Origin: Tumebacillus lacus
GTDB lineage: Bacteria; Bacillota; Bacilli; Tumebacillales; Tumebacillaceae
DNA length: 64,000 bases
Direction of reading: 5' to 3'
NCBI RefSeq assembly: GCF_026410385.1
Contig: NZ_JAPMLT010000010.1
Coordinates: 1-64,000, forward strand
Positions within the stretch are counted from its first letter, which is position 1. Each line of letters starts with the position of its first letter. The notes below the pieces were generated by a model. The model made no database searches. It was not told the origin of the DNA and worked only from the letters and a program-made list of their open reading frames with translations. Shown here one piece after another: positions 56,864-62,936 of this stretch. A program made the position numbers and the translations under genes.

Positions 56864-56929
56864 ATGTTTCGTGAAGAATTAATTCGATTTATAAAACACA
56901 CAAAGATACTGAGTGGTGAAAAGAGATGA
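56864..56929 (+). CDS. 21-codon leader ORF coupled to the redox operon
   Basis: A short frame of 21 residues (MFREELIRFI, then KHTKILSGEKR) has AGGAAGG upstream of its ATG. Its TGA overlaps the ATG of the next gene in the ATGA arrangement, which normally signals translational coupling. It lies in a strongly A+T-rich stretch. It could be a leader peptide or the remnant of a gene; I see no cysteines and no similarity to the Cys-rich peptides downstream. Confidence 0.35.
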   Translation: MFREELIRFIKHTKILSGEKR

Positions 56930-57444
56930 TTTGGACGACTCTGTTCACGGTTGGTTGTGTCGCCGCGATGATCGCTGTGTATCGCGCCTATCTCCCATTT
57001 CGGGATGAGATCAGAAAGTTGCCGCCAGCGGCTGGATCGAACGGTCTGCCCCATCCGTTGCTCGGTGCCAGCCTCAAGACGGCGGTCGATCTGCCTGAGG
57101 GTGTGCTGGGTCGTGCGGCGGTCGTGCAGTTCGCGGCTCCGACTTGCCCCAAGTGCCATGAGGAGATGATGTTCTTGGAGAAAGCCTACAAGGAGCATCC
57201 GTTCCCGTACGTGTGTCTGTATGAAGTGGATGAGAAGACCGACGAGCGACTCGTCCGGGAGTTTGTCGCCGAGTTTGGCCATCTGAACGTGATGCCGCTT
57301 CCTGTCGGCACGGCCCGCAAGATGGGGGTCAACATGACACCGCTCGTGATGATGATCGATGCGGACGGCATCGTGCGGCGGGTCGAGTTTCGACTGAAGA
57401 AGATGTTGGAGTGGATGCCCAAAGCCGAGAGGAGGGCAGGATGA
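56926..57444 (+). CDS. Membrane-anchored thioredoxin-fold protein (MauD/TlpA-like) 1
   Basis: A 172-aa protein with an N-terminal membrane helix (WTTLFTVGCVAAMIAVYRAY, 3-22) and an extracytoplasmic thioredoxin-like domain. The redox motif CPKC is in QFAAPTCPKCHEEMMFLEKA near 66-85, and the cis-proline region is MGVNMTPLVMMIDADG near 128-143. MauD-like proteins work with MauE in disulfide chemistry outside the membrane. The next gene (MauE-like) overlaps by ATGA. It opens the putative Cys-rich peptide operon. Sequence similarity to the other two thioredoxin-fold proteins here is low outside the motif. Confidence 0.8.
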   Translation: MIWTTLFTVGCVAAMIAVYRAYLPFRDEIRKLPPAAGSNGLPHPLLGASLKTAVDLPEGVLGRAAVVQFAAPTCPKCHEEMMFLEKAYKEHPFPYVCLYEVDEKTDERLVREFVAEFGHLNVMPLPVGTARKMGVNMTPLVMMIDADGIVRRVEFRLKKMLEWMPKAERRAG

Positions 57445-58019
57445 TGGATGATCTGGCGGTATGGTTTCGCTTGGTCCTCGCCTGTATGTTCCTGTCGACC
57501 GCCTGGTCGAAGCACAAGACGATGGCCGAGCACATCGGCATCGTGCGCGACTATCAGATCTTGCCTGCACGCTTGACCGAGCCGTTCGCAAAAGCGGAGA
57601 CGTACGTGGAGTTGTTGCTTGGCGTACTGCTGTTGCTGGGGCTTTTCCAACCGCTTGCCGCTGTCGGCTGTGCGGGGATGCTCGCCCTGTACTCGATCGC
57701 CATCGCGATCAATCTGCGGCGCGGACGACTTGAGATGTCGTGCGGCTGCGGCGGTGTGGCCGGTCAGCATTCAATCTCGTGGAAACTGGTCGCTCGCAAC
57801 GCGGTCTTGGCAGCTGCAGCGGTGTGGGTCTGCATCGCGAACGTGCCGCTCGGGACGACAGATGCGCTGCTCGGCGGTGCTGCATGGGGCGAAGTGTTCG
57901 GCCTGAGATGGGCGGCCATGCTCGGGATCACAGTCGCGACGATGATGGCGTGGACGATCGGCAACGAGCTGGCTTCGTTGCGCCAAGAGTTCCGAACGCT
58001 GCTGGAGGGGAAGTCCTGA
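57441..58019 (+). CDS. MauE/DoxX-family redox-associated membrane protein
   Basis: A 192-aa protein with four to five transmembrane helices (about 6-20, 50-85, 110-130, 145-165). The conserved motif CGCGG lies near residue 98 in LEMSCGCGGVAGQHSISWKL, typical of MauE, a membrane partner of MauD in methylamine dehydrogenase maturation that, like DsbB or VKOR, is thought to move electrons between thioredoxin-fold proteins and the quinone pool. The ATG overlaps the previous stop. No methylamine dehydrogenase genes are present, so another Cys-rich substrate is expected; the peptides directly downstream fit. Confidence 0.85.
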   Translation: MMDDLAVWFRLVLACMFLSTAWSKHKTMAEHIGIVRDYQILPARLTEPFAKAETYVELLLGVLLLLGLFQPLAAVGCAGMLALYSIAIAINLRRGRLEMSCGCGGVAGQHSISWKLVARNAVLAAAAVWVCIANVPLGTTDALLGGAAWGEVFGLRWAAMLGITVATMMAWTIGNELASLRQEFRTLLEGKS

Positions 58020-58020
58020 T

Positions 58021-58563
58021 ATGAGTACTTGGATGATTGTATCGAACGTTTTGTTATGGTGTGTGCTCTTGGTTCAGATGATTTTGTTTTTCGCGGTGAC
58101 ACGGTCGGTGTCGGAGATGGTCAAGCGATTTCAGATGTCAACACCGGGAGGAAGCAATCTGAGCGACAAGTCGATCGTACTCGGGCAGAAAGCCCCGCTG
58201 TTCAGCGAGCAAGATCAGCGGGGAGAGATCGTGACGCTGCGCCGGGATGCGGATCATCGCACCTTGCTCTTGTTCACGCTGGACACGTGTGTCGCCTGTC
58301 AAAAGTTGATCCCGGAACTGCCGCAACTGCTGAAGGACGAGCCGAACTTGCGCCTGATCGCGATTGCGCAGGAGGACTTGGCCGCACCGGACAAACAAGT
58401 GCCGCCCGGCGTTTCCTTGATTCGCTGCAACTGGTTGATGGAACAGTATGAAATCAAACAAACGCCCTATTATGTGCTGATCGACCAAGACGGTCGCATC
58501 GCCGACATGGGCGCGGCGGTCAAGATCCGCGAGATCGCCGGATTGCTGGACAAAACGGCTTGA
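58021..58563 (+). CDS. Membrane-anchored thioredoxin-fold protein (MauD-like) 2
   Basis: A 180-aa protein: N-terminal helix (VSNVLLWCVLLVQMILFFAV, 7-26), short linker, then a redoxin domain (LGQKAPLFSEQDQRGEIVTL near 53-72) with the CxxC motif in FTLDTCVACQKLIPEL near 83-98 and cis-proline loop IKQTPYYVLIDQDGR near 145-159. Begins one base after the MauE-like gene's stop region. The first Cys-rich peptide gene starts 16 bases downstream, its ribosome site overlapping this gene's end. Confidence 0.85.
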   Translation: MSTWMIVSNVLLWCVLLVQMILFFAVTRSVSEMVKRFQMSTPGGSNLSDKSIVLGQKAPLFSEQDQRGEIVTLRRDADHRTLLLFTLDTCVACQKLIPELPQLLKDEPNLRLIAIAQEDLAAPDKQVPPGVSLIRCNWLMEQYEIKQTPYYVLIDQDGRIADMGAAVKIREIAGLLDKTA

Positions 58564-58579
58564 GAGGAGGTGATCAATC

Positions 58580-58738
58580 ATGATGCAACAACTGATGAAA
58601 ATGTTGGGCTTGTCCGTTCAAGAACAAGTGCAAGCGGAGGGGGACTGGTCTTGCGTTCAGTCCGATCGATGCCCGGACTTAGGCGAAAATACGTATTGCA
58701 ACTACCATGTTTGCGACACGTACAACGAGTGCTGCTAA
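58580..58738 (+). CDS. Cys-rich peptide precursor 1 (52 aa)
   Basis: A 52-residue product with leader MMQQLMKMLGLSVQEQVQAE and a C-terminal part with six cysteines (positions 25, 31, 40, 45, 51, 52), spacing C-x5-C-x8-C-x4-C-x5-CC, ending in Cys-Cys. The core is acidic and polar (net negative), which is unusual for a membrane-active bacteriocin. There is no Sec signal peptide and no Gly-Gly cleavage motif. A perfect GGAGGTGATC ribosome site precedes the ATG. It directly follows the MauE and MauD-like genes, so disulfide formation is expected. Function (bacteriocin, signal, other) unknown. Confidence 0.75.
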   Translation: MMQQLMKMLGLSVQEQVQAEGDWSCVQSDRCPDLGENTYCNYHVCDTYNECC

Positions 58739-58767
58739 CATCATTCAAATTGAGGAGATGATCTGTC

Positions 58768-58929
58768 ATGTTGAACCAATTGATGAAGATGCTCGGCGTG
58801 TCTGAGTCGGACATCAAACCGGAGTACACCTACTACGCTTGTGAAATTCATGCTGCTTGCGACCTCAACTTGACTGAGTTTGAATGCACCGAAGGCGGCG
58901 GTTGCCGCCGCACCGGCTTGTGCTGCTAG
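58768..58929 (+). CDS. Cys-rich peptide precursor 2 (53 aa)
   Basis: A 53-residue paralogue of precursor 1. The leader MLNQLMKMLGVSESDIKPE shares L-M-K-M-L-G at the same position, and the core has six cysteines at 25, 31, 40, 46, 52, 53 (C-x5-C-x8-C-x5-C-x5-CC), again ending in Cys-Cys. Conserved spacing with divergent residues between the cysteines is the mark of a disulfide-framed peptide family. TGAGGAGATGATC is the ribosome site. It lies 29 bases after precursor 1. Confidence 0.75.
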   Translation: MLNQLMKMLGVSESDIKPEYTYYACEIHAACDLNLTEFECTEGGGCRRTGLCC

Positions 58930-58961
58930 TTTCATTCGTACCAAGTAGATGATTCGTCATG

Positions 58962-59054
58962 ATGTACCCCAGAACGGAGTACACCTACTACATCTGCCAC
59001 GGTGACGCTTGCGAAGGGTACGGCGTTTGCAACAGCACCGGCAATTGCTGCTAA
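58962..59054 (+). pseudogene. Leaderless Cys-rich peptide copy (30 aa)
   Basis: An ATG frame of 30 residues ends in the same Cys-Cys and starts its core with EYTYYIC, closely matching EYTYYAC of precursor 2. The bases before the ATG also match those before precursor 2 (compare GATGATCTGTCATG with GATGATTCGTCATG). The leader segment with L-M-K-M-L-G is missing, the core is shorter with five cysteines (12, 17, 23, 29, 30), and the GGAG of the ribosome site has decayed. This looks like a duplicated copy that lost its leader. It may be inactive, or act as a leader-independent peptide. Confidence 0.55.
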
Positions 59055-59075
59055 AGTCGCGGATGACAGGCGGCG

Positions 59076-59100
59076 GACTGTTGGAGACGCTCCGGCAGTC
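59076..59100 (+). other. Conserved RNA hairpin R1 downstream of the peptide genes
   Basis: GACTGTTGG and CCGGCAGTC form a 9-bp stem (with G-T pairs) around the loop AGACGCT. An almost identical hairpin lies at 61087-61112 behind precursor 4. No T run follows here, so it may be an mRNA stability or attenuation element rather than a terminator. Confidence 0.6.
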
Positions 59101-59142
59101 TGCTTCCGTGTCAGGATCACGGTCACAGAAAGGAGCCTGGAT

Positions 59143-59691
59143 ATGGAGCAAGCATTGACTCTCTCTCAGTTTGGTTTGTGGGTGTTTGCGTTGGTGCAGT
59201 TTGTCCTGTACGGTGTGTTTTTGCGCTCCATCGGCAGGTTTCTCAAGCAAATGCGCCTGAAACAGCCGACGGTGCAGCGGGTATCCTTGACCATCGGCCA
59301 GACGGCACCGGCGTTCCGGGGTGTCGATCAACTCGGTCGCACGGTGGAGTTCGGAACTGCGCACGGTCAGCCTGTGCTGATGCTGTTCATCCTGCACACC
59401 TGTCAGATCTGCCATTCGATCGTGCCCCGTCTGCACGAAGTGCGGGCGCGATATCCGGAGATGCAACTGATCGTGATCGCCTCGGAAGAAGGCGAAGGAG
59501 AAGACGGGAACATCCCCGATGAGGTATCATTCATCCGCTCCAATTCGATTCGCAAAGAGTATTTTGTCACCTATGTGCCGGCAATGGTCATGCTCAGTCG
59601 CGACCGCCGCGTGCTGGGCACCCATCGTGCGACGAGCATCGGCGATTTTGAAGCTCGTTTGGAGTCGTATACAAAGACTGCCGGGATCTAG
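59143..59691 (+). CDS. Membrane-anchored thioredoxin-fold protein (MauD-like) 3
   Basis: A 182-aa protein with an N-terminal membrane helix (FGLWVFALVQFVLYGVFL, 9-26) and a redoxin domain starting at IGQTAPAFRGVDQLGRTVEF near 48-67. CxxC is in FILHTCQICHSIVPRLHEV near 82-100, and the cis-proline loop is VTYVPAMVMLSRDRR near 146-160. It is most like protein 2 in layout (LGQKAPLF / IGQTAPAF). The ATG is behind AAAGGAGCC. It follows the precursor genes and hairpin R1, so peptide genes are flanked by redox genes on both sides. Confidence 0.83.
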   Translation: MEQALTLSQFGLWVFALVQFVLYGVFLRSIGRFLKQMRLKQPTVQRVSLTIGQTAPAFRGVDQLGRTVEFGTAHGQPVLMLFILHTCQICHSIVPRLHEVRARYPEMQLIVIASEEGEGEDGNIPDEVSFIRSNSIRKEYFVTYVPAMVMLSRDRRVLGTHRATSIGDFEARLESYTKTAGI

Positions 59692-59713
59692 TTCCGGCGG
59701 TGTTGATCATAGC

Positions 59714-59748
59714 AAAAAGACCGTGAGTCGAACGCTCACGGTCTTTTT
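59714..59748. terminator. Bidirectional terminator between redox gene and eamA
   Basis: AAAAGACCGTGAG and CTCACGGTCTTTT form a perfect stem with a short loop, between two convergent genes. Confidence 0.92.
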
Positions 59749-60669
59749 TCAGGTGGCGGCTTCTGCGTGCGGCTCCGAGTCCTGTCCGCCGCCTAGTTCA
59801 GCGAACAGCATGCCGCCGAGGATCAGCAGGCAGCCGAAAACTTGCGCTGCTGTCAGCCGGTCGCCTGCGACGAGAAATCCGGTCGCCGCCGCGAACACAG
59901 GCTCCGTGGCAAAGATCAGGGCCGTGCGCGTCGGCGAGGTGAATTTCTGGAATTGATTTTGCGCCACGAAGGCGAAGGCGGTGGCGATCACCGAGCAGAT
60001 CAACAGCGCGGAGAGCACCCAAGCGTCGAGCAGCACCTGCGGCGACCACGCGGTGGTGTAGTCTTCGAACAGAAACGCGCCGATGGCGTTGAACACCCCG
60101 GTGGCGAGGATCTGGATCAACGCGAACGGCATCGCGTGAAAGCGCACCGTATAGCGGCCGACCAGCGTGATGTGCATGCCGTAAGACAGCGCGCAGCAGA
60201 AAACCAGCAGGTCGCCGACGTTGATCGACAGGTCCCGGTTCAAGGAGAGCAGCCCGAGACCGACGGTGGCGATGGCGACGCCGAGCAGGGCTTTTTTCTT
60301 GAGCGGGTGCTTGAGCAGCCACAAGGAGAGGAACGGCACGAGCACGACGGACAGCCCGGTGATAAACCCGGCCTTTGACGCGGTGGTGAACATAAGCCCG
60401 AATGTCTGGAACGCATAGCCGGCAAACAGCCAAAAGCCAAGCCACGTCCCAGCCAGCCAGATCTCCTTGCTCATCCCTTTGAAGGTGTGGCGGAAAAAGG
60501 CCGCCATGAACAGAGCGAGCACCAACCCGCCCAGCAAAAAACGGACAGCGAGAAACGTGAACGGCGGCATCGTGTCGATCGCTTCTTTGACCAAGACAAA
60601 TGTCGCGCCCCACGTAAACGTGACCCCGAGCAAAATGAGGTCGGCCAAGTAGGATTTTTTCATGTTCAT
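59749..60669 (-). CDS. EamA/DMT-family transporter
   Basis: A 306-aa permease with ten transmembrane helices and two EamA repeats (ILLGVTFTWGATFVLVKEAI near 9-28 and FCCALSYGMHITLVGRYTV near 158-176). The family exports amino acids, metabolites or drugs. The start is ATG 60669 or 60663, with only a weak ribosome site. It is the sole minus-strand gene inside the Cys-rich peptide region. It might provide export or immunity, or may simply separate two halves of the locus. Confidence 0.88.
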   Translation of the reverse strand: MNMKKSYLADLILLGVTFTWGATFVLVKEAIDTMPPFTFLAVRFLLGGLVLALFMAAFFRHTFKGMSKEIWLAGTWLGFWLFAGYAFQTFGLMFTTASKAGFITGLSVVLVPFLSLWLLKHPLKKKALLGVAIATVGLGLLSLNRDLSINVGDLLVFCCALSYGMHITLVGRYTVRFHAMPFALIQILATGVFNAIGAFLFEDYTTAWSPQVLLDAWVLSALLICSVIATAFAFVAQNQFQKFTSPTRTALIFATEPVFAAATGFLVAGDRLTAAQVFGCLLILGGMLFAELGGGQDSEPHAEAAT

Positions 60670-60711
60670 ACTTCTTACAATAGCCAGAGAGATCCGTTCC
60701 GTCAATGTTGT

Positions 60712-60864
60712 GTGAATCGTTTTGTTAGAAACGAGAGGGACTATCGAACTGCTGATTATATTTTTGAATTGTTAGAGGGTGTTACGGGTGGAATGCAGAA
60801 TTGTTATTATATTGCAATTGGGATCGTAACAAACAGCGTGTCATCTGTTGGGGGCTGCTGCTAA
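60712..60864 (+). pseudogene. Degenerate Cys-Cys-ending peptide frame
   Basis: A frame ending GGCC-stop, as the Cys-rich precursors do, can be read back to a GTG at 60712 (50 residues, similar in length to the others) or to an internal ATG (23 residues). It includes FELLEGVTGGMQNCYYIAIG and SVGGCC. Only the last two cysteines and one other in the core are present, the L-M-K-M-L-G leader is absent, and no good ribosome site precedes the GTG. It may be a decayed family member, or a different peptide with a Gly-Gly leader end. Low confidence as a gene. Confidence 0.3.
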
Positions 60865-60912
60865 ACTGTCGAATTTTTTCGTGAAATATTCCCCGAGGAG
60901 TTGTTCGAGTTG

Positions 60913-61062
60913 ATGAATCTACTGATGAAAATGCTGGGCGTGAGTGCAAAAGAGCAAGCGGAGCCGGAAGTGATCTGGGAGTGCTATCCGGGCAACGTCT
61001 GTGAATACGAACTCATGTTGTGTCGTGACAGGGAATGTATGTCTTATGGAGAGTGCTGCTAA
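60913..61062 (+). CDS. Cys-rich peptide precursor 4 (49 aa)
   Basis: A 49-residue family member: leader MNLLMKMLGVSAKEQAEPEV, then six cysteines at 24, 30, 37, 42, 48, 49 (C-x5-C-x6-C-x4-C-x5-CC), ending in Cys-Cys. The leader keeps L-M-K-M-L-G-V-S, shared with precursor 2 although they lie 2 kb apart. GAGGAG lies upstream of the ATG (spacing 12; a TTG at 60910 is the alternative). Hairpin R2 and then an ABC exporter gene follow on the same strand, so the exporter is the natural transporter for this family. Confidence 0.72.
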   Translation: MNLLMKMLGVSAKEQAEPEVIWECYPGNVCEYELMLCRDRECMSYGECC

Positions 61063-61086
61063 CGGCACGACTGGCAGTATCATGCA

Positions 61087-61131
61087 GACTGTTGGGGGAC
61101 GCTCCAGCGGTCTACTTCCTTTCTTTTTTCT
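61087..61131 (+). terminator. Conserved hairpin R2 with T-rich tail
   Basis: GACTGTTGG and CCAGCGGTC form a 9-bp stem around loop GGGACGCT, followed within a few bases by a T/C-rich run (to 61131). It corresponds to R1 at 59076-59100. It lies between a highly expressed-type peptide gene and the exporter gene and could be a leaky terminator setting their ratio. Confidence 0.6.
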
Positions 61132-61157
61132 AATGCTCTGACTGGCAGGTGAAAGAC

Positions 61158-62936
61158 GTGAAAAGCAACGAATTGACCCAAGCGGTCCGCTACATCTGGC
61201 AGGGGCACCGCACCTGGGTGATCTGCACGGCGGTGCTGAGCCTGATGCTCGGGCTGACCCCGGCTGTGCATCTGTGGGTGGCCAAGGAACTGGTCAACGA
61301 AGTCGCGGCTCTGCTCAACGGCGGCGGCGACTACAGCGGAGCGTTTCAATTGCTCGTCGTGCAGTTTCTCGTGCTGTTGCTGGCCTCTCTGCTGACAAAG
61401 GCGCAGGAGTTGCTCGACAAGCGAACAGAACTGCATCTGGATCACGACCTGCAGCGGGCCGTCATGGAAAAGACGACGACTGTGCCGCTCGAACTGTATG
61501 ACCGACCCGATTTTCAACATGCGATCGAACGCGTCCACGGCGGGCAGGCCCACCGTTTTCTCACGCCGATCAAACAGTCGATGGATATCGTCCGCCAACT
61601 GACCACCTTGATCTCGTTCCTCTTTTATCTGCTCAGCGTCCATTGGACGCTCGCTCTGGTCAGCGTCGTGGCGGCGTTCCCGCTGTTGCTCGTGCTCGCT
61701 CGATTTGGCAACAAACGTTTTTCCCTGATGATGTTTCAAACACCGCTGGCTCGGGAAGCCCGCTACCTGCAACACCTGATGGTGAAGCGCGAATCGGCGA
61801 AGGAAGTCCGCCTGTTCCAACTGCGCGACTTTCTGCTCGGCGTTTGGTCAGACCGCTTTCGGCGCAATCAAGAGGAGACCTATCGCTTGTTTAAACGGGA
61901 AAAAGGCACGCTGGTGCTGACAGATGCTCTGACCGCCTTTTTCTACGTGGGAGCAGCCGGATTGATCATCTGGGTGGCGCGCGCGGCGACGATCACCATC
62001 GGCGATTTTGTCGCGCTCGGTCAGGCGGTGCAAGGCACGCAGAGCGCGATCAACCAGATCGCGGGTCAGATCGCGAGGTTGTATGAGTCGAGGCTGTATC
62101 TGCGCGACTATTTTCGCTTTCTGGACGACTCGGTGTATGAGAGCCGAGTGGATCGGGGAACAAAGTCCTTCCCGGCTCCGCTGCAGGCGGGTATCTCGGT
62201 TGAGCGCGTCTCCTTCCGCTATCCGGGCAGCGAACGGCCTGCGCTGCAGGACGTCTCCTTGCAGATCCAGCCAGGCGAGCGGATCGCCATCGTCGGCGAC
62301 AACGGCTCTGGCAAAACGACGCTGGTCAAATGTCTGATGGGCCTCTATCAAGTGCAGACCGGGTGCATTCGCGTCGACGGCGTGCCGATGCAGGACATCG
62401 CGGAGGAGCAGTTGTTCCACAACATCACCGTCATCTTCCAAGACTTCATGCGCTACGACTTCACGGTGCGGCAAAACATCACCATCGGCCAGTTGGAAGC
62501 GGCAGCCGACAAAGAGCGGCTGGAGACTGTGGCGGCGAACGCGGGCGTCGAGTCGTTTGTCGCCCGCTTTGCGCAGGGCTACGACACGCACCTCGGCCGC
62601 AGTTTCCAAGAGGGGGAGGATCTCTCCGGCGGACAATGGCAAAAGATCGCGCTGGCACGCGCGCTGTTTTCCGAAGGGCAGCTGCTGATCCTCGATGAGC
62701 CGACGGCGGCGCTCGACCCGAAGGCGGAGATGGAGGTGTTCGAGCATTTCGATCACCTGACGCGGGGCAAGACGGCCGTATTCATCTCGCATCGGATGGC
62801 GGCCGCCCGGATGGCCGACCGGATCATCGTGATGCGGGACGGTCAGATCTGCGAGATGGGCACGCACGAGCAGTTGATCGCTCTGGAAGGCGAATACAAG
62901 CGCATGTACACGATGCAGGCGCAGTGGTACCGCTAG
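61158..62936 (+). CDS. ABC exporter (membrane domain fused to ATPase)
   Basis: About 592 aa. Six transmembrane helices in the first 320 residues are followed by an ATPase with Walker A GDNGSGKTTLVKC near 378, signature LSGGQWQKIALARAL near 492, Walker B LLILDEPTAALD near 514, and H-loop FISHRM near 547. The layout matches exporters of lantibiotics and other peptides. It has no N-terminal C39 peptidase, so the leader must be removed by another enzyme or retained. The start is probably GTG at 61158 behind AGGTGA; GTG 61149 lies inside that site. It lies 95 bases after precursor 4. Confidence 0.9.
   Translation: MKSNELTQAVRYIWQGHRTWVICTAVLSLMLGLTPAVHLWVAKELVNEVAALLNGGGDYSGAFQLLVVQFLVLLLASLLTKAQELLDKRTELHLDHDLQRAVMEKTTTVPLELYDRPDFQHAIERVHGGQAHRFLTPIKQSMDIVRQLTTLISFLFYLLSVHWTLALVSVVAAFPLLLVLARFGNKRFSLMMFQTPLAREARYLQHLMVKRESAKEVRLFQLRDFLLGVWSDRFRRNQEETYRLFKREKGTLVLTDALTAFFYVGAAGLIIWVARAATITIGDFVALGQAVQGTQSAINQIAGQIARLYESRLYLRDYFRFLDDSVYESRVDRGTKSFPAPLQAGISVERVSFRYPGSERPALQDVSLQIQPGERIAIVGDNGSGKTTLVKCLMGLYQVQTGCIRVDGVPMQDIAEEQLFHNITVIFQDFMRYDFTVRQNITIGQLEAAADKERLETVAANAGVESFVARFAQGYDTHLGRSFQEGEDLSGGQWQKIALARALFSEGQLLILDEPTAALDPKAEMEVFEHFDHLTRGKTAVFISHRMAAARMADRIIVMRDGQICEMGTHEQLIALEGEYKRMYTMQAQWYR

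Follow-up and report, generated by a model that had tools for sequence, protein, structure and literature searches.

A 64,000-nucleotide stretch of contig NZ_JAPMLT010000010.1 from Tumebacillus lacus, here called the window and numbered by its own positions, contains between 56926 and 62936 a cassette of genes for one MauE membrane protein, three thioredoxin-fold proteins with a CxxC motif, three intact open reading frames (ORFs) with six Cys residues each, one leaderless copy of such an ORF and one ATP-binding cassette (ABC) exporter. A preliminary description of this DNA had listed the same MauE, CxxC proteins, intact Cys-rich ORFs and exporter, and all of them were found again from Pfam matches and ORF coordinates. 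We are confident that the cassette is dedicated to Cys-rich peptides and, judged from its genes, it is a real and largely undescribed variant of the systems that make disulfide-type exported peptides, with product and activity predicted. The cassette is supported by the recurrence of exporter and Cys-rich ORF in genomes of other spore-formers, the enrichment of such ORFs near it, their even number of Cys residues, a ratio of non-synonymous to synonymous change (dN/dS) below 0.6 and the absence of the cassette from three of three congeners.

Genes of the cassette and their genomic setting

All cassette genes lie on the plus strand and are tightly spaced. The first (56926..57444) encodes a TrxA-like protein with an N-terminal transmembrane helix and a thioredoxin/redoxin domain carrying CPKC (Pfam Redoxin, 31.3 bits), and its stop is overlapped by the start of mauE (57441..58019). 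One base further begins the gene for MauD-like protein 1 (58021..58563; N-terminal transmembrane helix, CVAC), followed after 16 bases by precursor P1 (58580..58738; 52 residues, leader MMQQLMKMLGLS), precursor P2 (58768..58929; 53 residues, leader MLNQLMKMLGVS), the P2-like copy without leader (58959..59054; 31 residues, 5 Cys) and MauD-like protein 2 (59143..59691; N-terminal transmembrane helix, CQIC). Precursor P3 (60913..61062), of 49–53 residues depending on which of the starts 60901, 60910 and 60913 is used, and the exporter (61149..62936), 3 kb away from mauE, complete the set. P1–P3 share the leader M..LMKMLG(L/V)S, contain six Cys residues and end in CC; AGGAGG or GAGGAG lies upstream of each, and the ribosome-binding sites of P1 and P2 are good. 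As for the two degenerate copies mentioned in the preliminary description, the P2-like one held up, whereas the short ORF at about 60769–60864, upstream of P3, was set aside, as it has a GGCC end and its DNA similarity to P3 is within noise, so that the alignment gives it no support.

MauE is a DoxX-fold membrane protein that matches PF07291 with 93.1 bits (E 2.2e-26; gathering cut-off 27). Its SCGCGG loop is invariant in 11 of 11 aligned MauE sequences, some of which came from a scan that used this motif. The AlphaFold model (predicted local distance difference test score, pLDDT, 86.8) shows five long helices; a Foldseek search with it gave no match at E ≤ 0.001. The nearest fold was that of NACHO/TMEM35A (Z 12.0, 2.6 Å over 116 residues), a match set apart from all others yet within the tool's caution range for helical bundles, and VKOR structures scored Z 5.3–6.0, level with unrelated bundles. 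The two MauD homologs, with 61.2 and 33.2 bits for proteins 1 and 2, lie below the TIGR02661 equivalog cut-off of 188.6 and are predicted to be MauD-like only; a first contig search with MauD-like protein 1 as query gave no match. A TrxA profile reached E < 1e-20 in 16 places, of which 12 were rows of the profile itself. We did not retain TrxA as a cassette-specific family, given that the TrxA-like genes of other cassettes (for example in sampled genomes G275 and G249) scored about 1e-12, like generic thioredoxins.

The exporter combines a transmembrane domain with a nucleotide-binding domain (ABC_tran, 115.9 bits), and its start is possibly at 61158 by comparison with locus L070 (L numbers denote loci compared, each with its own coordinates, and G numbers sampled genomes). 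Pfam detected no C39 peptidase domain in it at E ≤ 1 and its best NCBIfam model was MsbA, with a score under the cut-off of that model; the "peptide-type ABC exporter" of the preliminary description is thus an ABC exporter whose peptide type is presumed. Among ten window proteins scanned against Pfam there was no MNIO/HvfB-like enzyme, lasso cyclase, lasso peptidase or glycosyltransferase.

On one side of the cassette lie the core genes engB/DUF4097, on the other lies a gene for an ssuC-like transporter, and a minus-strand gene for an EamA transporter (59749..60672) splits the cassette. Three of three congeners have the order lon-engB-DUF4097-EamA-ssuC-ssuB without the cassette, and EamA is present in four of four genomes of the genus. 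Since cassette parts lie on both sides of EamA and the gene is kept in the cassette-less congeners, we regard it as a host gene around which the cassette was inserted or rearranged; the interval earlier described as one system is one for the cassette genes but not for EamA, and a role of EamA in immunity was dropped. The closest relative of the cassette, L070 in another genus (G013), has all parts in a single run without EamA, in the order TrxA-MauE-MauD1-precursor-ABC-MauD2, with 76.6% identity in the exporter and 71.7% in MauE. Horizontal transfer cannot be read from these values, because EngB is 84% identical to that of the same genome. A further carrier, G012 (Tumebacillus avium), is from the same family as the genome of the window.

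Recurrence of the cassette and selection on the peptides

A MauE profile of 11 sequences was searched in 398 sampled genomes of the class (E ≤ 1e-20) and found 32 MauE loci in 25 genomes, eight of the loci being rows of the profile. An exporter gene accompanies MauE at 30 of the 32 loci and at 23 of 24 once the profile's own rows are removed; this count includes the gene of G203, cut by the contig start, and that of G053, in two frames, and gives a negative for G013:C5 and for G391, at a contig end. The G053 exporter homology (L073 5281-7111) runs across two reading frames, so that a broken or misread gene is possible. At 29 of the 32 loci a small Cys-rich ORF was identified (21 of 24 without the profile's rows). 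G013 has four MauE loci and G012 three, and several precursor copies stand at L084 and L087; several loci per genome and several precursor copies are usual for competition peptides.

We also applied a blind ORF rule (28–110 residues, at least 4 Cys, CxC or CC near the end) to 35 MauE loci including that of the window. Such ORFs occurred at 0.64 per kb near the cassette compared with 0.11 per kb further away, two rates that are not strictly alike, as the cassette genes, with their length and any ORFs within them, are excluded from the near rate and nothing is excluded from the far rate. An ORF lay near the cassette in 30 of the 35 loci, compared with about 6 expected at the far rate, and two of the 30 (L080 and L082) look spurious. 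The strict rule was failed by L025, L083, L085, L089 and L091, and at L083, L089 and L091 precursors were identified by hand.

Beyond the class, a phylum-wide sample of 398 genomes gave two with MauE at E ≤ 1e-15; both belong to that class, and one is the window's own. A scan of the contigs of 84,980 species with two peptide patterns, taken from an alignment of four MauE sequences, yielded 17 loci. Eight are cassettes, one is a lasso cluster and the remaining eight carry proteobacterial titles, four of these eight having been annotated. The cassettes are from Tumebacillus avium (three), Brevibacillus borstelensis, B. formosus, a metagenome-assembled genome of Paenibacillaceae, Fictibacillus and Longirhabdus, the last without precursor. 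A Priestia megaterium plasmid also bears a cassette, whose precursor gene is annotated "hypothetical protein" in the record; three TIR-domain genes lie a few kb from it (L017 11104-15958). A second plasmid, NZ_CP069398, has MauE and a MauD-like gene about 13 kb apart.

Homologous precursors were identified by hand among ORFs with 4 or more Cys, or with 3 Cys and the leader pattern; matches overlapping cassette genes or without the pattern were removed by eye. A third DNA match of P1, among unrelated-looking genes (contig C22, L003), was also set aside. Most of the peptides have CC or CxC at the end; they contain 4–8 Cys and are highly variable between these residues. Some of them lack the leader, start with MKYVPC and occur in several copies (L087 44-602; L089 4276-4449 and 10074-10241), which suggests that the leader is not always needed. 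The 39 peptides form 25 clusters at 60% identity, and the first member has an even number of Cys residues (4, 6 or 8) in 24 of them. Two copies with 5 Cys, the leaderless one of the window (58959-59054) and a fourth copy in L087 (4285-4443), stand outside the 39; including both, the count is at worst 24 of 27. The filter is blind to parity, and a coin-toss probability of about 8e-7 overstates the case, since clusters are related and these two copies are omitted.

The dN/dS values (Nei-Gojobori) were 0.05–0.52 in 13 of 15 peptide pairs, those with finite dS, with dS saturated in the other two; pairs of the window precursors gave 0.28–0.48 at high dS. By this measure the precursor peptides are under purifying selection. 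Two tests proposed in the preliminary description, conservation of the small ORFs beside MauE/MauD genes and the pattern of synonymous and non-synonymous change, have therefore come out in favour of translated, cassette-associated peptides, and what stands of the proposed making, folding and export is a cassette dedicated to peptides that are rich in Cys and presumably exported.

MauE and MauD take their names from methylamine dehydrogenase, and the redox genes could serve that enzyme, cytochrome c or another substrate, with the small ORFs there by chance. Recurrence, enrichment and purifying selection of the small ORFs make this very improbable. The methylamine dehydrogenase light chain (PF02975) was above cut-off in none of the 25 cassette genomes, and likewise in none of 14 control genomes, a set with no positive control; a weak match in G156 contains stops.

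Neither Pfam nor NCBIfam has a family for P1–P3, and among ten homologs there was a single weak match without meaning. PDB sequence searches with the precursors gave nothing significant (best E 4.9 for the precursor alignment and 1.3 for L021), and no kinship with solved bacteriocins was found in this way. An AlphaFold model of P1 (pLDDT 58.6, a single hairpin at 38–47) was left unused.

Membrane placement of the redox cysteines

The proposed relay would work as follows. P1–P3 would be synthesized with a short amphipathic leader, whose sequence and selection are observed, and either the leader or the fold would direct the peptide to its dedicated ABC exporter. There TrxA and both MauD-like proteins would act upon the peptide thiols, and MauE, whose CGC loop is invariant, would re-oxidize them, probably passing electrons to quinone, a link familiar from DoxD. 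Disulfides are probably the main modification of the peptides. The preliminary description placed their formation on the outside; several features instead point, as predictions, to the cytoplasmic face.

In Tumebacillus avium (L023 5599-7986) TrxA and the exporter are fused in frame into a protein of 795 residues, with CGLC at residue 78 and exporter homology from about residue 199. In exporters of this ABC type the stretch ahead of the first transmembrane helix is cytoplasmic, therefore the thioredoxin domain of the fusion is expected to be cytoplasmic as well. Lys and Arg residues are more numerous behind than before the N-terminal transmembrane helix in 52 of 53 TrxA/MauD proteins (46 of 53 by net charge); start codons in this count were chosen by script, several rows are close orthologs and the sole exception lacks a convincing transmembrane helix. 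Over 11 MauE sequences, 118 Lys/Arg residues fall in loops 1 and 3 (the latter with CGC) and the C terminus, compared with 13 in the N terminus and loops 2 and 4. The pattern is reversed in two thioredoxins encoded beside CotJ-like genes, with 11 Lys/Arg before the helix and 0–2 behind it. These belong to MauE/thioredoxin pairs in the window's genome (L006 1486-2395, minus strand) and in a congener (G002, L005 951-1902), which we set aside as another MauE system; the CotJ genes were recognized by eye among listed ORFs of at least 60 residues.

The alternative is oxidative folding outside the cell, in which the reduced peptide is exported and the disulfides are introduced, in the manner of DsbA/DsbB or BdbCD, by outward-facing TrxA and MauD proteins that MauE recharges. 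Disulfides normally form outside, MauD and MauE are usually assigned to a periplasmic enzyme, and the recurrence and enrichment of the small ORFs fit this arrangement equally well. In the portion of Kloosterman et al. (2020; PMC7794033) drawn on here, MauE is speculated to form the disulfides of methylamine dehydrogenase. The MauD proteins of Paracoccus and Cupriavidus have the same pattern as the cassette proteins (0 Lys/Arg before the helix, 2 behind). This cuts both ways: either the charge rule fails for the family and the pattern does not mean inside, or MauD also faces inward. The fusion, the 52 of 53 charge pattern and the MauE loop charges speak against outside folding, as does the Paracoccus denitrificans MauA (L111 3646-4212), which begins with a twin-arginine type leader (RRSVIG); read as a signal for twin-arginine translocation (Tat), this leader would be in keeping with a protein that folds and gains its disulfides before it is exported. 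We regard outside folding as a serious competitor, if the less probable of the two. A bolder extension, that MauE and MauD-like proteins are an inside-out, quinone-linked thiol oxidase whose cytoplasm-facing cysteines form disulfides before export, in Bacilli in peptides bound for the ABC exporter and in methylotrophs in the small subunit of methylamine dehydrogenase ahead of Tat, is speculative and rather unlikely.

With the cysteines placed inside, the CxxC proteins could also, ahead of export or in the course of it, hold the thiols of the precursor in the reduced state or rearrange incorrect disulfides, and leave oxidation to occur spontaneously. The predicted cytoplasmic placement and the TrxA-exporter fusion agree with such a relay, and so do knock-outs in lasso clusters that retained disulfides and lost export or yield, as described in the part of PMC9266682 used here. 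Three CxxC proteins and a membrane partner, however, exceed what a cytosol that is already reducing would need, and we think this explanation improbable.

A relay on the cytoplasmic face that is coupled to export, with which the TrxA-exporter fusion agrees best, is our tentative preference among these. Several observations weigh against it and against the wider reading of the cassette. Neither a leader protease nor an immunity gene was recognized in the window cassette, and precursors were not found at three of the 32 loci, namely G302 (L080, flanks complete), G203 and G391 (both at contig ends), nor in the TrxA-ABC-MauE-MauD locus of Longirhabdus (L025), whose contig stops 1.1 kb upstream. 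Odd numbers of Cys also occur, with 7 in one precursor homolog and 5 in each of two copies that look degenerate. The fusion was seen once among 16 strong TrxA matches, the two thioredoxins of opposite pattern are a contrast and not a control of known topology, and the charge rule misleads for this family should MauD be periplasmic, its usual assignment. The positive-inside rule is itself a prediction, the cytosol is reducing, and peptide, disulfide and activity are predicted from genes alone. The accessible text of PMC9266682 further reports that knock-outs of the DoxX and thioredoxin genes in lasso clusters still gave disulfides. Given that the outward contrasts lack an established topology and that true MauD shares the charge pattern, we keep the cytoplasmic relay just short of an even chance.

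For the product, an antimicrobial or some other competition peptide is the likeliest identity, with antimicrobial activity itself somewhat favoured. Directly behind the MauD gene of the Brevibacillus borstelensis cassette (L021 9469-14359) lie an ABC ATPase gene and a gene for a 1400-residue FtsX permease with an M1-peptidase-like part, which might be immunity or processing genes and so make a putative antimicrobial action likely. ATPase/permease pairs of similar size occur at L073 and L082, and a large permease at L074, as judged by size and not by Pfam. Helix-turn-helix regulators with tetratricopeptide repeats, a quorum-type architecture, stand beside two cassettes (L026 3855-5135, minus strand; L091 9687-10964), and these may point to a signalling role. 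A quorum signal, or a metal-binding peptide as in bufferin loci with the DoxX relative HvfX, is nevertheless quite improbable: the match of MauE to the NCBIfam HvfX profile NF050144 is weak (22.0 bits; cut-off 80), no MNIO/HvfB-like enzyme was among the ten window proteins, and Cys numbers are mostly even. The locus may well be an accessory, bacteriocin-like cassette for small peptides of ribosomal origin, each locked by two to four disulfides, a reading that we hold with reserve.

Relation to known systems and significance

MauE (three families) and MauD (one family) were proposed by decRiPPter as genes of ribosomally synthesized and post-translationally modified peptides (RiPPs) in Streptomyces (Kloosterman et al., 2020; PMC7794033, consulted in part). 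These families share with the window mauE/mauD, a Cys-rich predicted precursor and a predicted modification of it. They differ in that they are from Streptomyces and have precursors with at least 8 Cys, whereas the window peptides have 6 and some homologs 8; the portion consulted presents them as predictions and mentions neither a TrxA-ABC-MauE-MauD cassette nor the window leader. Siamycin-type class I lasso clusters (sviE/F, mslE/F, humE/F) likewise pair a DoxX membrane protein and a CxxC thioredoxin with a Cys-containing exported peptide (excerpts of PMC9266682 and PMC7168211). They have a lasso cyclase and peptidase, unlike the ten window proteins, and their knock-outs kept disulfides (PMC9266682, same excerpts).

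One lasso-type cluster, in Bacillus sp. NTK074B (L030 7968-13584), comprises a Transglut_core3 peptidase, an Asn_synthase cyclase, a YTAPTLIKIG leader and an ABC transporter, adjoined by MauE and a MauD-like CxxC thioredoxin; its precursor has 4 Cys in the last 21 residues. Two-disulfide lasso peptides are given as coming from Streptomyces only in the passages of PMC7168211 at hand. The Bacillus cluster suggests that the MauE/MauD-like pair travels between peptide classes.

The Paracoccus methylamine dehydrogenase locus (L111) resembles the cassette in its MauE-MauD pair, in the charge pattern of MauD and in the adjoining gene for a multi-Cys substrate; it differs in this substrate, an enzyme subunit bearing a twin-arginine type leader, and in that its nine annotated genes include no ABC exporter or small peptide. 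Sublancin-type clusters and that of bactofencin A, with its thioredoxin, also group a ribosomal peptide, an exporter and a redox helper (parts of PMC9266682 and PMC7616364, respectively). The window cassette differs from a glycocin of the sublancin type, as no glycosyltransferase is among the ten window proteins, and from double-glycine bacteriocins, as the exporter has no C39 domain and no GG ends the leader or precedes the Cys-rich part in P1–P3. We know of no MauE in sublancin- or bactofencin-type clusters.

The combination of genes was not recognized in the preliminary description. We found no description of the Bacilli cassette in the open-access literature, a scope outside which most subscription journals lie; RiPPs with MauE/MauD (PMC7794033) and lasso clusters with DoxX and thioredoxin (PMC9266682) were already known, on the evidence of the extracts used. 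Among the open-access matches listed, PMC7794033 was the only one taken to join MauE with RiPP precursors, and the laterosporulin passages of PMC9867215 and PMC7616364 contain no cluster resembling the cassette.

The chemistry of the MauE, MauD and DoxX family is unsettled. In the sections of the two papers used here, the function of MauD is called unclear (PMC7794033), and that of DoxX enzymes ambiguous, with knock-outs that left disulfides intact (PMC9266682). In the cassette described here, MauE stands in a short gene set with tiny substrates and no other recognized modification enzyme, which makes its role directly testable. The cassette occurs in 25 of 398 genomes of the class, yet none of 13 scanned precursors is convincingly covered by Pfam or NCBIfam, and a probable antimicrobial peptide family is thus being missed. 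If the relay does face inward, current ideas of the sites at which bacteria can form disulfides would change, and if the inside-out oxidase were true, the same relay would fold the multi-disulfide small subunit of methylotroph methylamine dehydrogenase before it leaves the cell through Tat.

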